Assembly (NCBI GenBank): GCA_022072055.1
Contig: JAJVIK010000011.1
Coordinates: 370,597-434,596, forward strand
DNA: 64,000 nucleotides
Source: a bacterium
GTDB taxonomy: Bacteria; Hinthialibacterota; Hinthialibacteria; OLB16
Direction of reading: 5' to 3'
Shown one piece after another: positions 43,950 to 47,968 of the stretch. Position 1 is the first letter of the stretch. Each line of letters begins with the position of its first letter. The position numbers and the translations under genes are program-made. Under the pieces are notes generated by a model. It had not been told where the DNA came from, did no database searches, and worked only from the letters and a program-made list of their open reading frames with translations.

Positions 43950-44079
43950 GCTCCGAACCAGCGCCTCCTCTTCTCATATCCGTTTCGCCCCCCACGGGGG
44001 TCGGGTGCGAGCGAGGGTTCACGCGCAAGCAGAGTGCCCCTCATTGGAGACAGGAATTCAACCTGTCCGTTGTTCCACA

Positions 44080-46176
44080 TCACTCCACCAACCTGGTCCA
44101 ATCCAAGGCGAACTCGATCAGGACCTCCTGCGAATTGGCGTCCTTCCGCGCCGAATCGAGAATCCACAACAGGTCTTTGGCGTTCACGATCCCATCCCCA
44201 TTGGCATCCATGTCGAGCGTCCTTCCGGCAAAGGTGTTCTCCAGGCGCAAGGTGTTGCCTTGGTCATCCACAAGGCAGATGTCGTAGTAGTACACCGTGT
44301 CGGACAAGAGGTCCCGGTCCACCACCGAAACCTCTCCAGCCGAAACTTCCGCCACTATGGTTCCCGGATTCTCGCCGCAGTCCCCAAGCTGTTCCCTGTT
44401 GGCGGCGCGACGAACCAGGAAGCCGAGCGTGCTCGGATCGTTGTCGCTCTCCCAGGTGACCCGCATCTGAGTCTGCGAAAGCGCCTCGGCGCGACCGTTG
44501 GCGAGCTTCGCCAGGGTGCGGCCCCCGAACGGGAGCGTGAGTTGACGGTTCTCGCGCAGTTCGGGGAAGTTCTGGTCGAAGAGCAGCTCATACACTCGGT
44601 AGACATAGAATGTCTCCTCCGCAAGGCCCGTGTCCACAAACTCCGTGCTGTTGGGGAGTGTGAACCCGGCGAAGGAATACGGACCGGCCTCCGCGGGCGC
44701 GCGCAGGACAAAATACCCCAGCAGCCCGGTGGTCCCCTTAGCCGCCGAGGGTTGCCATTCCAACGCCAGGGCGTCCGTGAAGGCCTCCGTGACCATTCCC
44801 TCGGTGAGCGTGCTCGGATCCTGTTTCACAATCCGAAAGCGATGAGCGGTGTCCTCCGGAATCTCAAATCCGCTCGCGCTCATCGTCGGACTGATCCGGA
44901 GTGTATACGTTCCGTCAGGGATCGCTTCCGTAACTTCGAAAGCTCCATGCCAAGTCCCATCGCCCGTCCACCCTGGCGAGGCGTTGAGAACATGATCCGT
45001 ATATGGGGCCACGAGGCCAAAGGTGACATTCAGGTCCGTATCCGTGTTCATCGCCTCGGAATAGGTGAATGAGAACAGAGTGACTCCGACATCAATCGGA
45101 AAGCGCTCATCGGGCCAGACCGAGACCAGATGCGGCGTGGGGGTTCGCGTCGGGGTCGGCTCGCCGGGACGAAGGGTGTTGGTGATCGTGGGCGTGGGGG
45201 TGATGGAGCGAGTGGCGCTGGCGCTTCGGGTGGAGGTCGGCGTGCCCGTGAGAGCGAGCGTCGCACTCGGCGTGGCGCTATTCGTGGCGGTTGGTGTTTC
45301 GGAGCGGGTGCGGGTCACTGTTGCCGTGGTGGTGGGAGTTGTCGTGGAAGAGGGAGTGGCTGTGACCGTCACCGTCGGAACCGGAGTGGAGGTTCCCGTG
45401 GAGGCCACCGTGGGGGATTCCGTCGGAACCGGAGTGGAGGTTTCCGTGATGGTTGCTGTCGGAGTGAATGATGGGGGAAGATCGGTGTTTGAGGAGGTCG
45501 GAGAAGCAGTCGAGCTCGGTGATGGAGTTGAGGTCGGGGATGCGGTCGCTGATGGGGTCGCAGTCGCAACGGCCGTATCGGTGTGAGTCGGGGAAAGGGT
45601 CGAGGTCGGAGGCGCCGTATCGGTAACGGTTGGCGTGGCCGTGGCGGAGTTCGTGGGGGTCCACGTGGGGATCTCAGTCGGGCTGAAGGTCTGGGTCGGA
45701 GTGCTCGTGCCGGTGTCGCTTGGAGTGGGGGTGTGCGACGGGGTATATGTCCGGGTCTCGGTCTCGGTCGGTGTGAGGGAGGCCGAGGGGCTGGGGGTTG
45801 GGGTCGCGGTGAAACTGACGGTGGGGGTCGGGGTCGGCGGCGTGCCGTTGATCAGTCCGCCGGGCCAGAAGCCATATTCGGCGGAATAGGAGACGCTCGT
45901 GGCCGTTCCGCTCCCACCCTCCTCGGCGAGTGAGGCGTTCAGGTCATAAGACGCGCTGGAGGCAGGCTCGCCGCCGCCGTTGAGCTCGTATGGATGAAGG
46001 GAATACGGCCCACCGGTAAGGGGGGCGGAAAGGACGGCGGGGGTGTAGGTGAGCAGGAGAATGCTGAACCACGGAGAACGGATTCGGAACGGTCGGAAAT
46101 TTCGGAAAACGGAAGTGTGGACTGGACGCTTCCTTCCGACCCCGCCGATGGTTCCGAGAGTTCCGTGGTTCAACAC
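44080..46176 (-). CDS. Secreted Thr/Pro-rich protein whose 5' end lies in a palindromic repeat
   Basis: 698 residues if started at the GTG 46174-46176. The first about 37 residues are encoded by the repeat at 46063-46174; a signal peptide-like stretch SPWFSILLLTYTPAVLSA spans its edge. A short repeat-containing folded part follows, then a very long Thr/Pro/Ser linker (about 115-350) and the shared 330-residue C-terminal module with a dockerin-like end. The start overlaps the GxxExxY stop (GTGTTGA), so translation may be coupled. Either the gene gained its start from the repeat or the repeat destroyed the native start; the sequence cannot tell which. Confidence 0.75.
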   Translation of the reverse strand: MLNHGTLGTIGGVGRKRPVHTSVFRNFRPFRIRSPWFSILLLTYTPAVLSAPLTGGPYSLHPYELNGGGEPASSASYDLNASLAEEGGSGTATSVSYSAEYGFWPGGLINGTPPTPTPTVSFTATPTPSPSASLTPTETETRTYTPSHTPTPSDTGTSTPTQTFSPTEIPTWTPTNSATATPTVTDTAPPTSTLSPTHTDTAVATATPSATASPTSTPSPSSTASPTSSNTDLPPSFTPTATITETSTPVPTESPTVASTGTSTPVPTVTVTATPSSTTTPTTTATVTRTRSETPTATNSATPSATLALTGTPTSTRSASATRSITPTPTITNTLRPGEPTPTRTPTPHLVSVWPDERFPIDVGVTLFSFTYSEAMNTDTDLNVTFGLVAPYTDHVLNASPGWTGDGTWHGAFEVTEAIPDGTYTLRISPTMSASGFEIPEDTAHRFRIVKQDPSTLTEGMVTEAFTDALALEWQPSAAKGTTGLLGYFVLRAPAEAGPYSFAGFTLPNSTEFVDTGLAEETFYVYRVYELLFDQNFPELRENRQLTLPFGGRTLAKLANGRAEALSQTQMRVTWESDNDPSTLGFLVRRAANREQLGDCGENPGTIVAEVSAGEVSVVDRDLLSDTVYYYDICLVDDQGNTLRLENTFAGRTLDMDANGDGIVNAKDLLWILDSARKDANSQEVLIEFALDWTRLVE
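44141..45143 (-). repeat. 1003-bp duplicated C-terminal module, copy 2
   Basis: Partner of 40948-41950. A recognisable difference is GGTCTTTGG (44176 region) against GGTCCTTGG in copy 1. Upstream linkers differ completely, so the match is confined to the module. Confidence 0.88.
46063..46174. repeat. Palindrome-ended intergenic repeat, copy A
   Basis: About 112 bp with ends GCTGAACCACGGA and TCCGTGGTTCAAC (one mismatch in the inverted ends). Its inner 71 bp (46104-46174) differ from copy B at one position. It lies at the 3' end of the GxxExxY gene and supplies that gene's stop codon. Confidence 0.85.
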
Positions 46177-46571
46177 TTCTCTTTCCTCATTTCATCCAGT
46201 TTCAACCGCTTCACCTCAATCCTGTCTGATCCGAAATTGATCAGAAGTGCGAGTTTGTATTCCGTGGCCTTGAGGTACCCGAGAGTCTGAACGACATCCA
46301 CTTTCTCAATGGCGGCCTTGGCCTTGGTCTCGATCAGGACATCCTCCACCAGGAAATCCACCCTTCGCCTGTCCACCCGCTTGCCCTTGTAGAGAATCGG
46401 CACGGTGCATTCCCTGGTGAATTCCAGCCCCTCCGCTTGCAGCTCAAGAGCAAGCGCAGTCTGGTAAGTGGTCTCCATGAAGAAGGGGCCGAGCTCCTTG
46501 TGAACCTCCACCGCGCATTTCAGGATGCGGTCGGTGACGGCGCCGAAGTCATAACCCTTGTGGGAGCGCAT
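46170..46571 (-). CDS. GxxExxY protein (PD-(D/E)XK nuclease-like)
   Basis: 133 residues, ATG at 46571 with AAGGAGAA nine bases upstream. It carries the GxxExxY-type motif (LGPFFMETTYQTALALEL) and the nuclease-like VDFLVEDVLIETKAKAAIE (Asp ... Glu-x-Lys). Function is not established for the family; the fold suggests DNA or RNA cleavage or binding. The gene is framed exactly by palindromic repeats (copy A at its 3' end, copy B 42 bases before its start), and its stop TGA is part of the repeat terminus. Such bracketing suggests the gene and repeats move together. Confidence 0.88.
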   Translation of the reverse strand: MRSHKGYDFGAVTDRILKCAVEVHKELGPFFMETTYQTALALELQAEGLEFTRECTVPILYKGKRVDRRRVDFLVEDVLIETKAKAAIEKVDVVQTLGYLKATEYKLALLINFGSDRIEVKRLKLDEMRKEKC

Positions 46572-46613
46572 GGCAGAGGGTTCTCCTTTCCTGGGTGATG
46601 GGAGAGGAACGGT

Positions 46614-46721
46614 GTTGAATCACGGAGGATTCGGAAAGGTCGGAGGGATTGGAAAACGGAAGTGTGGACTGGACGCTTCCTTCCGACCCCTCCGATGGTT
46701 CCGAGAGTTCCGTGGTTCAAC
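46614..46721. repeat. Palindrome-ended intergenic repeat, copy B
   Basis: 108 bp, ends GTTGAATCACGGA and TCCGTGGTTCAAC. Its 71-bp right part (46651-46721) matches copy A at 70 positions. It lies between the tail-collar gene and the GxxExxY gene. Confidence 0.85.
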
Positions 46722-46732
46722 ATCGCATCCCC

Positions 46733-47722
46733 CTACGTCTTGATGATGAAAACAACCGCAAAGTACGGGTCGAGTACGTTGTGGGGCTGGCCGCCGCCGG
46801 TGGAGTCCGTGAAAAGCTGCGTTGTTCGACCAGGGGTATAGGAAGCGGAGGGTTCATTGTAGGATCCCCCAGTTCCACTAAAGCCCCACGGGCCATTAAA
46901 AACTTGCCCATGAGAGTGGGCAGGGATTTCACTCTCCGTCAACGTATGTGTCGCCTCGCCTCCAGTCTGCGTCAGCGCCCCTGTCACATTCGTCTTTGGC
47001 ACACCCGAATCATCCTGCCTCGCACCCATCGGCGAACGGTCGCGGAGGTCAGGCAGGTTGAAGGTCGTAGTGCCATCGCCGATGCCGTAGATGGTTCCGA
47101 GAACTCCAAACAGATTCGCGTAGGTGGTCCGGGAAATTGCCGAACCGTCGCAGAGCAGCCAGCCGGAAGGGATCGCGCTGATCGGCCCGGCCCACATGCG
47201 GACTTCACCGGTGAGCAAGAGCGCACTGGCTTGAATTCCGTTCACTGTATCCGCGTCCCCCGCCGTCTCCGCCCTCACCGCATGAAACGCATACCCCGCG
47301 CTGGTCACCTTCTGATCCGGCATCAGCTGTTGATTTCCATTCGCTGTTCCGTCATCAAACCAGACCCGCAGGACAATGTTGTCATCGTCGAACACACTGC
47401 TCTGAATTGGGATCATGTTGGTCAGGGAAGCGTCTCCCAGGCGAACATTGTAGATTCCATTTATGACTGGTAGGTTGACCGGATTCGTGGGTGTCCCCAC
47501 GGCATTCAGTTGCGTGCCATCATTCGTCCACCGGTTGAGACCCGTGTCCGGATCGATCAGCGCGAAGCGGAAATCCCCGTTGCCGTTGAACGGGTTCCCG
47601 CCCACCTTGATGACCCCCTGGTGGTTCATCTGCAAGGGGATCGCGGCGAAAGAATGGGGAATTGGGAAGAGAGAATGGAGAAAGAACAGCAGGGTTCCCA
47701 GGGGGACAGAGAGACGGGTCAT
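46733..47722 (-). CDS. Secreted protein with phage tail-collar domain
   Basis: 329 residues from the ATG at 47722 (GAAGGAGG seven bases upstream). Residues 1-28 are a signal peptide (MTRLSVPLGTLLFFLHSLFP...SFA). A region with QMNHQGVIKVGGNPFNGNGDF is followed by a C-terminal tail-collar domain: GEVRMWAGPISAIPSGWLLC, DGSAISRTTYANLFGVLGTI, YGIGDGTTTFNLPDLRDRSP, then His-rich THTLTESEIPAHSH. Such domains are found in phage short-tail fibres and in many exported bacterial proteins. With a signal peptide and no phage genes nearby, it is probably a surface or secreted protein. Confidence 0.85.
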   Translation of the reverse strand: MTRLSVPLGTLLFFLHSLFPIPHSFAAIPLQMNHQGVIKVGGNPFNGNGDFRFALIDPDTGLNRWTNDGTQLNAVGTPTNPVNLPVINGIYNVRLGDASLTNMIPIQSSVFDDDNIVLRVWFDDGTANGNQQLMPDQKVTSAGYAFHAVRAETAGDADTVNGIQASALLLTGEVRMWAGPISAIPSGWLLCDGSAISRTTYANLFGVLGTIYGIGDGTTTFNLPDLRDRSPMGARQDDSGVPKTNVTGALTQTGGEATHTLTESEIPAHSHGQVFNGPWGFSGTGGSYNEPSASYTPGRTTQLFTDSTGGGQPHNVLDPYFAVVFIIKT

Positions 47723-47749
47723 GACTAAGCCTCCTTCGATGGGATGGGT

Positions 47750-47860
47750 GTTGAACCACGGAATTGCCGGAACCCTCGGAGGAGTCGGAAGAGGGCCTCG
47801 AGGGCATCGGTCCGTTTTCCGATCCTTCCGAACCTTCCGATTCCGTTTCCGTGGTTCAAC
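47750..47860. repeat. Palindrome-ended intergenic repeat, copy C
   Basis: 111 bp with perfect 13-bp inverted ends GTTGAACCACGGA (47750-47762) and TCCGTGGTTCAAC (47848-47860). The interior differs from copies A and B but keeps their CGGAA/TTCCG-rich self-complementary style. It sits upstream of the tail-collar gene. Confidence 0.8.
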
Positions 47861-47968
47861 AAGATTCCGTTCACCGTGGTACACCGTCGTTCCCCGGAAT
47901 CCGGGAATCTTACCAGGAACCCTAGCCGTTGTCCCACGCGTTTTCACGTCTCTGACAAAATGTGACAC

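Follow-up and report, generated by a model that had tools for sequence, protein, structure and literature searches.

What a small nuclease-like gene does between two nearly identical hairpin repeats is the question raised by a locus in a 64,000 nt stretch of bacterial DNA (phylum Hinthialibacterota, NCBI GenBank assembly GCA_022072055.1, contig JAJVIK010000011.1, positions 370,597 to 434,596 of the forward strand), which is called the window in the following. The gene belongs to GxxExxY (PF13366), a common protein family without an assigned role. The original prediction for this locus was a possible mobile cassette, in which the protein acts on the repeat or the unit is a minimal self-spreading element, and as a whole this interpretation is partly supported by our analysis. 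GxxExxY genes of many bacteria were found within or between hairpins with arms of tandem 7 nt words, and gene-less hairpins of the same plan are dispersed in several genomes. Our best reading is a pair of the REPIN/RAYT kind, with a RecB/Cas4-like nuclease in place of the HUH transposase. The GxxExxY genes would be the coding partner of the word-arm hairpin family, the nuclease would act on its own hairpin near the loop, and repair would copy the hairpins, a proposal to which we give an even chance.

The GxxExxY gene of the window lies between two complete hairpins

The gene and the repeats have the following positions in the window:

46170 to 46571, minus strand: GxxExxY gene (PF13366 / TIGR04256), coding for a PD-(D/E)XK protein of 133 aa in which D72, E81-x-K83 and Q95xxxY99 are present
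46061 to 46176, no strand assigned: hairpin repeat R1 (repeat A of the original prediction), 3′ of the GxxExxY gene, provides the stop codon of the gene
46612 to 46723, no strand assigned: hairpin repeat R2 (repeat B of the original prediction), 5′ of the GxxExxY gene, direct copy of R1
47748 to 47862, no strand assigned: hairpin repeat R3, a third copy that is absent from the original prediction, with 15 nt perfectly complementary ends

The open reading frame (ORF) matched the PF13366 profile with an E-value of 1.1e-32 (113.2 bits, cut-off 22) and the TIGR04256 GxxExxY profile with an E-value of 8.4e-34 (116.4 bits, cut-off 35). R1 and R2 are oriented alike and, as predicted, 70 of their last 71 bases are identical (stretches ending at 46175 and 46722); over 96 nt the identity is 93%. 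R3 is 77–78% alike to them and has the inverted orientation. The inverted ends were confirmed as well: the termini of R1 and R2 are GTTGAACCACGGA / TCCGTGGTTCAAC, in register, with one change in each repeat, at the outer end of R1 (CTGAACC) and in R2 (TTGAATC). Each of the three repeats forms a complete hairpin of about 112–116 bp that ends in variants of TGTTGAACCACGGA / TCCGTGGTTCAACA, and minimum free energies of −60 (R1) and −70 kcal/mol (R2) were calculated for the RNA. Since R1 and R2 are both complete, the GxxExxY gene is placed between two whole hairpins. The arrangement in the window is not that of a simple cassette with terminal repeats; most relatives have one arm of a single hairpin on each side of the gene. 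As the prediction had it, the stop codon of the gene (..AAG TGT TGA ACC ACG G..) lies inside the terminus of R1.

Within the arms of the window hairpins CGGA recurs every ~9 nt. Six near-matches to TTGAACCACGGA (at most 1 mismatch) were found in the window, all within R1–R3; with 2 mismatches the window had 10 versus 6.3 expected, which is not significant. The paired ends, rather than the motif count, are the outstanding feature of these repeats. Between positions 44000 and 49000 of the window no Rfam family scored above the cut-off, and one chance match was below it.

The genome of the window (G000, 5.86 Mb) has a single PF13366 gene. Counting repeats genome-wide by combined searches gave about ten distinct hairpin places, and three of these are within 1.8 kb of the sole GxxExxY gene. 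The places are R1, R2, R3, C2:605569, C6:73987, C14:86138 and C1 near 477 kb, with further partial or diverged hairpins on contigs C7, C16 and C22.

Paired arms flank GxxExxY genes in many bacteria

PF13366 was found in 8 of 14 genomes of the phylum of the window. By reading of the flanks, hairpins adjoin the GxxExxY gene in most of these relatives, each of which has its own word (CACAAAG/CACGAAG, CGCAGAG, CACAGAT, CCCGGAT and CAGGAT were seen). A scan of genome contigs yielded 15 GxxExxY loci in records of several phyla, whose titles name Omnitrophota, Armatimonadetes, Bacteroidetes, Chloroflexi, Gammaproteobacteria, Rhizobacter, Thioalkalivibrio, Geobacteraceae, Desulfuromonadaceae and Planctomycetes; an alignment of 9 broad sequences, considered as query for the scan, had no conserved stretch. 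In these records the gene often stands between the two arms of one hairpin, for example as GCCACAGAGGACACGGAGG, GxxExxY gene and CCTCTGTGTCCTCTGTGGC between glyQ and glyS (names of neighbouring genes are readings of the flanks unless annotated). The arms of PF13366 elements consist of tandem 7 nt words spaced ~9 nt; the word varies from element to element and is common to both arms.

Exact inverted pairs of 11-mers were too strict a detector for such imperfect arms, and local alignment of the flanks was used instead, with the arm score measuring how far the 250 nt on the upstream side are locally complementary to the 250 nt on the downstream side. For a set of 41 loci, which excludes repeat copies of loci (L025–L027, L044, L045, L047, L048, L051, L053, L057, L058, L069) and contig-end or gene fragments (L024, L061, L068), true flank pairs averaged 23.0 compared to 9.3 for mismatched pairs, and none of 100,000 permutations reached the observed sum. 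Control windows 750–1000 nt away, which 35 of the 41 loci had, averaged 8.8 with a maximum of 14, a value exceeded by 34 of the 41 loci. The result was similar for an independent set of 29 Bacteroidota loci out of about 115 matches listed for 61 genomes (17.6 versus 9.4 for mismatched pairs; 20 of 29 above 14; 0 of 20,000 permutations).

A score of at least 15 was found for 54 of 70 loci (52 of 68 after removal of the redundant L042, same as L038, and L035, like L034), and for 0.17–0.47% of 3000 random positions in each of four genomes. The signal decayed sharply with distance: it was present in 78% of 65 loci at 0–250 nt, in 5% of 64 at 250–500 nt, and in none beyond. Split arms only were seen at 34 of the 70 loci, arms together with complete hairpins on both sides at 6, including the window, and neither arms nor hairpin at 10. 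In an extra set of 19 loci, which is outside the arm counts except for L046 and L067, 18 have arms scoring at least 21, and the remnant L114 has none. The matched-flank, distance and random-position tests bear out the predicted association of repeat and gene.

The hairpins could also be common intergenic palindromes or terminators, beside which GxxExxY genes lie by chance or through a common preference for intergenic regions. The motif count of the window, not significant at 2 mismatches, would agree with this, as would the small number of repeats in some gene-bearing genomes. The matched-pair and distance tests in two independent sets, the rate of 0.2–0.5% at random positions and the proximity of 3 of the ~10 hairpins to the only GxxExxY gene of the window genome argue against ordinary repeats, an explanation that we find scarcely credible. 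Chance adjacency is ruled out by the distance decay and the random-position rates, provided that the alignment score does not itself create the matched arms as an artefact.

Gene-less hairpins are dispersed and in part match the words of the genes

Hairpins of this plan also occur without a gene (solo hairpins). A triple-word pattern was found 251 times in Thioalkalivibrio denitrificans (G023). Of 26 gene-bearing genomes 14 had matches, with at most 251 per genome, compared to 4 of 19 gene-free genomes (at most 5; Mann-Whitney p = 0.005); the pattern misses degenerate words, for example those of the window's own genome. Per 400 kb stretch, 37 word clusters were counted in G068, 17 in G070 and 1 in the gene-free G026. 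Where words occurred on two strands, 29 of 31 clusters were purely inward and none was outward. The hairpins are nearly absent from most gene-free relatives, and repeats that are numerous without a link to GxxExxY genes were looked for and not found.

The genes of G068 have ACAGGAT- and CGCGGAG-type arms, and this genome has 53 ACAKGAT and 37 CGCRGAG pairs per 400 kb. G070, whose genes have CACAGAG and CGCAAAG arms, has 1 ACAKGAT and 1 CGCRGAG pair; in turn, CACAGAG pairs number 33 in G070 and 8 in G068, and CGCAAAG pairs 23 and 14, per 400 kb. For whole genomes, 240 ACAKGAT pairs were counted in G068, 215 in G069, 192 in G023, 15 in G070 (no such gene found) and 14 in G067, compared to 0–3 in 13 gene-free relatives. 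Since the whole-genome counts are mixed, the correspondence between word and gene is partial.

Solo hairpins are often nested in each other's loops. In G023 CACGAAG is the outer word with CTCTCGCAAAG within and GTAGGTTGGGGTGAG or TAGGGCGCCC innermost, and in G068 CGCGGAG is outer and ACAGGAT inner. At L155–L166 of G023 the innermost hairpin classes GTAGGTTGGGGTGAG..CTCACCCCAACCTAC and TAGGGCGCCCCATGGGCGCC..GCCCGCCCTA were seen in loops of word-arm hairpins. A composite of an outer GGACAGGATGAACAGGAT-type and an inner GACAGGATTAACATGATTTACAGGAT-type hairpin was found repeatedly (G023:C21:62984-63167; sites 205530 and 357529 of the 400 kb stretch of G068). As certain nested composites recur, the composite may also spread as one unit.

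Comparison of G068 and G070, in which 20 and 11 sites were comparable, revealed polymorphic sites. Seven G068 hairpins face gaps of 31–93 nt at the orthologous G070 sites, two of these gaps with possible remnants, and at several other sites the corresponding gap is occupied by a hairpin of another word. The carA-carB site has a gene element in two species, a solo hairpin with another word in two, and neither in G026. L120 and L109 are gene-deleted elements that keep both arms. Gene-less repeat copies are thus dispersed and differ between sister species.

A second protein family lies between arms with a different period

Genes of PF05635 (S23/IVP four-helix proteins) outside rRNA were found between arms of tandem heptamers (L255–L284), which differ in most elements (GGGTGTT, CTAGGGG, AGTGCTA, TTCAAGA and others). 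For 30 PF05635 loci out of about 58 matches listed, matched flanks averaged 20.0 and mismatched flanks 8.5 (0 of 20,000 permutations), and 22 of the 30 were above the control maximum. The PF05635 arms have a strict period of 7 (identity 0.73 at lag 7 and 0.71 at lag 14), while the identity of PF13366 arms was highest at lag 9 (0.40), with lags 8 and 10 also contributing; in 34 of 54 PF13366 elements no one lag stands out clearly. A preset-free scan for tandem triples with an inverted partner, which counts long arrays more than once, gave 17 cases in G068 and 19 in G070 at period 7, 8 and 5 at period 9, and at most 1 each at periods 5, 6, 8, 10 and 11. It found no paired arms in G026, which is gene-free with respect to PF13366. 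The window's genome had no PF05635 match.

We consider, somewhat short of an even chance, that both families belong to a widespread gene-in-hairpin class. The period of the arm words (~9 nt for GxxExxY, 7 nt for PF05635) would be set by a small resident protein, which would act on loops. Copies would spread to operon gaps and to each other's loops and in this way generate nested hairpins, and the word would turn over in concert in both arms. A few members of the class would have inserted in rRNA and become its intervening sequences, and gene-less offspring would make up the abundant intergenic repeats of the CACAGAG/CACGAAG/ACAGGAT type in many bacteria.

The main rival explanation is that another enzyme, or replication and repair of palindromes, spreads the hairpins, and that GxxExxY and PF05635 genes ride along; they would persist in loops since loops tolerate insertions and operon sites give transcription. 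Hairpins of one plan house two unrelated proteins, which fits equally well with both being passengers and hence counts against an active role. Hairpins also nest in hairpin loops without any gene, and G023 is rich in CACGAAG and ACAGGAT solo hairpins without an intact gene of that word. However, the period follows the protein family (7 for PF05635, ~9 for PF13366) and would not be dictated by a passenger. Hairpins are mostly absent from gene-free relatives, abundant solo words match the gene words in G068 and G070, and the nuclease site, which is under purifying selection, does not vary. Taking both sides together, we judge mere passengers to be somewhat unlikely.

A possible relation of the GxxExxY protein to RecB/Cas4-type nucleases

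The protein has the catalytic residues of a PD-(D/E)XK nuclease, with D72, E81 and K83 being invariant in 81 of 81 aligned proteins; Q95 is present in 80 and Y99 in 79 of the 81. The ratio of nonsynonymous to synonymous substitution rates (dN/dS) was 0.05–0.33 in the 7 computable pairs out of 10, and the other three were saturated. The protein is under purifying selection. The QxxxY motif is a mark of the RecB/Cas4-type branch. An AlphaFold2 model (pLDDT, the predicted local distance difference test, 89.5) had Cas4 SSO0001 (4ic1) as nearest fold in Foldseek (E-value 9.8e-5), followed by MGME1 and AddAB. Comparison with 4ic1 by VIA gave a Z value of 8.5 over 103 residues at a root-mean-square deviation of 4.4. 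The nearest solved folds are mainly DNA nucleases, with RNA splicing endonucleases also among the structure matches; a sequence search of the PDB gave no match.

In three Bacteroidota genomes PF13366 lies within an 883 aa open frame (G097:C9:91047, G109:C22:338274, G125:C1:72351), which is possibly a fusion protein.

GxxExxY elements lie in sense in operons and are mostly resident

In the window both neighbouring ORFs have the strand of the GxxExxY gene:

46733 to 47968, minus strand: upstream neighbour, ORF with a phage-tail-collar domain
44080 to 46176, minus strand: downstream neighbour, Thr/Pro-rich secreted-type ORF, whose listed 5′ end runs through R1

As the 5′ part of the upstream ORF runs through R3, its real start is probably at about 47722. 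The downstream ORF had no Pfam match. It has a long Thr/Pro repeat region and a C-terminal DANGDGIVNAKDLLWILDSAR segment, which we take to be dockerin-like.

GxxExxY elements are placed in sense within host operons, and often start at the stop codon of the upstream gene. Both neighbours were on the strand of the gene at 40 of 79 loci (the 70 loci and 9 of the extra set of 19), and both were opposite at 1. Strands were called by a simple rule based on ORF length and G+C content at third codon positions (GC3), by which 21 upstream and 16 downstream neighbours were not callable. In annotated plasmid records both neighbours had the same strand in 6 of 6 cases.

This strong sense bias would also be expected if the arms act at the level of RNA. 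The arms would pair in the mRNA, and RNase III or the protein itself would excise the gene from the operon transcript, as for 23S rRNA intervening sequences; the dispersed hairpins would be elements for processing or stability of operon transcripts, and if they spread at all, this would occur through RNA. The start of hairpins at upstream stop codons is consistent with such a function. The Coxiella part of PMC4990558 describes an intervening sequence that has the S23 ORF in sense in its loop and is cut by RNase III, and tandem heptamers (GACAGAT) with the same period as the PF05635 elements analysed here. However, the need for a host promoter could equally cause the sense bias, and the nearest solved folds of the GxxExxY protein are mainly those of DNA nucleases, even though RNA splicing endonucleases are listed too. 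We keep the RNA-level explanation open because of the sense bias but regard it as clearly unlikely.

In sister species the GxxExxY gene is mostly kept at the same operon site. Among 72,556 plasmid records 8 had a match, and among 50,697 phage records none; for the detection of recent movement the matches in these searches were too few and too diverged. Arms are present in 3 of the 8 plasmid copies, from Bacteroides finegoldii (beside radA), Bernardetia, and Sphingomonas parapaucimobilis (between fabD and fabG). The gene is mostly resident, under purifying selection, rare on plasmids and unmatched in phages, which is more in line with a manager of repeats that stays in place than with an insertion sequence (IS). 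The minimal self-spreading element of the original prediction is not supported by these findings.

A conventional cassette, IS-like with terminal inverted repeats, with GxxExxY as transposase and the solo hairpins as miniature inverted-repeat transposable elements (MITEs), would explain that arms with inward polarity bracket the gene and that internally deleted copies and polymorphic sites exist. No target duplication could be demonstrated, though, and besides the scarcity in plasmid records (8 of 72,556) and the lack of a phage match, comparison of sister species showed most loci to be orthologous and resident. The arm sequence varies among elements, whereas IS ends are fixed, and complete hairpins lie on both sides of the gene in the window and at five other loci of 70. 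We regard such a cassette as very unlikely.

The glyQ-glyS gap holds GxxExxY elements in a gammaproteobacterial metagenome-assembled genome and in Thioalkalivibrio (L031, L037), and this common site reflects either very old residence or a favoured site. At L038 and L039 the element lies between genes read as sbcD and sbcC, which encode a nuclease cutting DNA hairpins.

A possible mechanism of hairpin spreading

The GxxExxY gene sits in the loop of a word-arm hairpin or, as in the window, between two complete hairpins. We infer that the protein recognises, cuts and thereby copies these hairpins. A small RecB/Cas4-type nuclease would recognise its own word array in a hairpin, which could be an extruded cruciform, single-stranded DNA at the replication fork, or RNA, and would cut in the loop or close to it. 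In the course of repair the hairpin would be copied into another hairpin loop or an operon gap, and internal deletion of the gene would convert the full element into a solo hairpin. Gene and solo hairpins would thus relate to each other as RAYT and REPIN, with an unrelated enzyme.

Several observations weigh against this mechanism. Arms above the threshold are missing at 16 of the 70 loci and in 5 of the 8 plasmid copies. Several gene-bearing genomes, that of the window included, have no match to the word pattern, and the preset-free scan found nothing in the window's genome, whose words are too degenerate for it. G067 has an intact ACAGGAT-type gene and yet the 14 ACAKGAT pairs given above, while G023 has its 192 pairs with a gene remnant only; the latter genome also abounds in CACGAAG solo hairpins but has no intact gene with this word. 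Neither a transposition event nor a target duplication or circular intermediate was observed; the flanks compared between sister species are only ~71–92% alike, so that element ends cannot be fixed and duplications are unreadable. The RecB/Cas4-type nuclease itself is a prediction, based mainly on motifs and a modest fold match with Foldseek TM-scores of about 0.43.

Comparison with known systems

In the open-licence PMC literature we found no paper that connects GxxExxY to repeats. The link to a widespread repeat class gives these proteins a concrete candidate substrate, and the GxxExxY hairpins give the impression of a family of repeat-spreading elements that has so far gone unrecognised. 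Two features call for explanation, namely that the word period (7 or 9) is specific to the protein family and that the word changes in concert in both arms.

With RecB/Cas4-type nucleases (Cas4, MGME1, AddB, lambda exonuclease) the GxxExxY protein shares the best fold matches and the conserved D, ExK and QxxxY positions. Unlike these it has only ~115–130 aa and no extra domain, and the TM-score is ~0.43. PF05635 genes are reported within cas loci, often with Cas4, in the relevant section of PMC3936711, and a passage of PMC8934634 has a gene that is named cas4 by one tool and GxxExxY by another. GxxExxY genes may account for some of the cas4 calls made near repeats.

Like MITEs and IS elements, the system comprises full elements, internally deleted derivatives and solo palindromes. 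It differs from them in that there is no DDE transposase, the arm sequence is not fixed, and no target duplication was seen.

The GxxExxY element resembles an rRNA intervening sequence but is not one. As in the 23S rRNA intervening sequences with the S23/IVP ORF (PF05635), an ORF lies in the loop of a hairpin of terminal inverted repeats, in sense to the host transcript, and loops serve as place of insertion. In Coxiella tandem heptamers precede the S23 ORF, according to the same part of PMC4990558, so that this intervening sequence fits the period-7 class. By contrast, GxxExxY elements lie between protein genes, encode an unrelated protein and have words at a period of ~9 rather than 7. The origin of rRNA intervening sequences has been debated since 1990, as stated in that article (PMC4990558), and if the proposed class is real, they gain a wider family for comparison.

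REPIN/RAYT systems, as characterised in the portions of PMC3116915 and PMC8049555 that concern them, have one or few chromosomal, mostly vertically kept genes beside the cognate repeat, and more repeats in genomes that carry the gene. The GxxExxY system likewise has dispersed extragenic hairpins of inverted doublets, and GxxExxY-bearing genomes are richer in repeats, with exceptions (26 versus 19 genomes, p = 0.005). Three features are different. The arms consist of tandem 7 nt words that change with each element; the gene is often enclosed by the two arms of a single hairpin, and hairpins nest in loops; and the associated gene codes for a PF13366 PD-(D/E)XK protein instead of a Y1 HUH (tyrosine) transposase. 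Because the HUH transposase is replaced, the GxxExxY system is not a member of REPIN/RAYT; if our reading is correct, it would be a resident pair of repeat and enzyme like REPIN/RAYT, built on a different enzyme.

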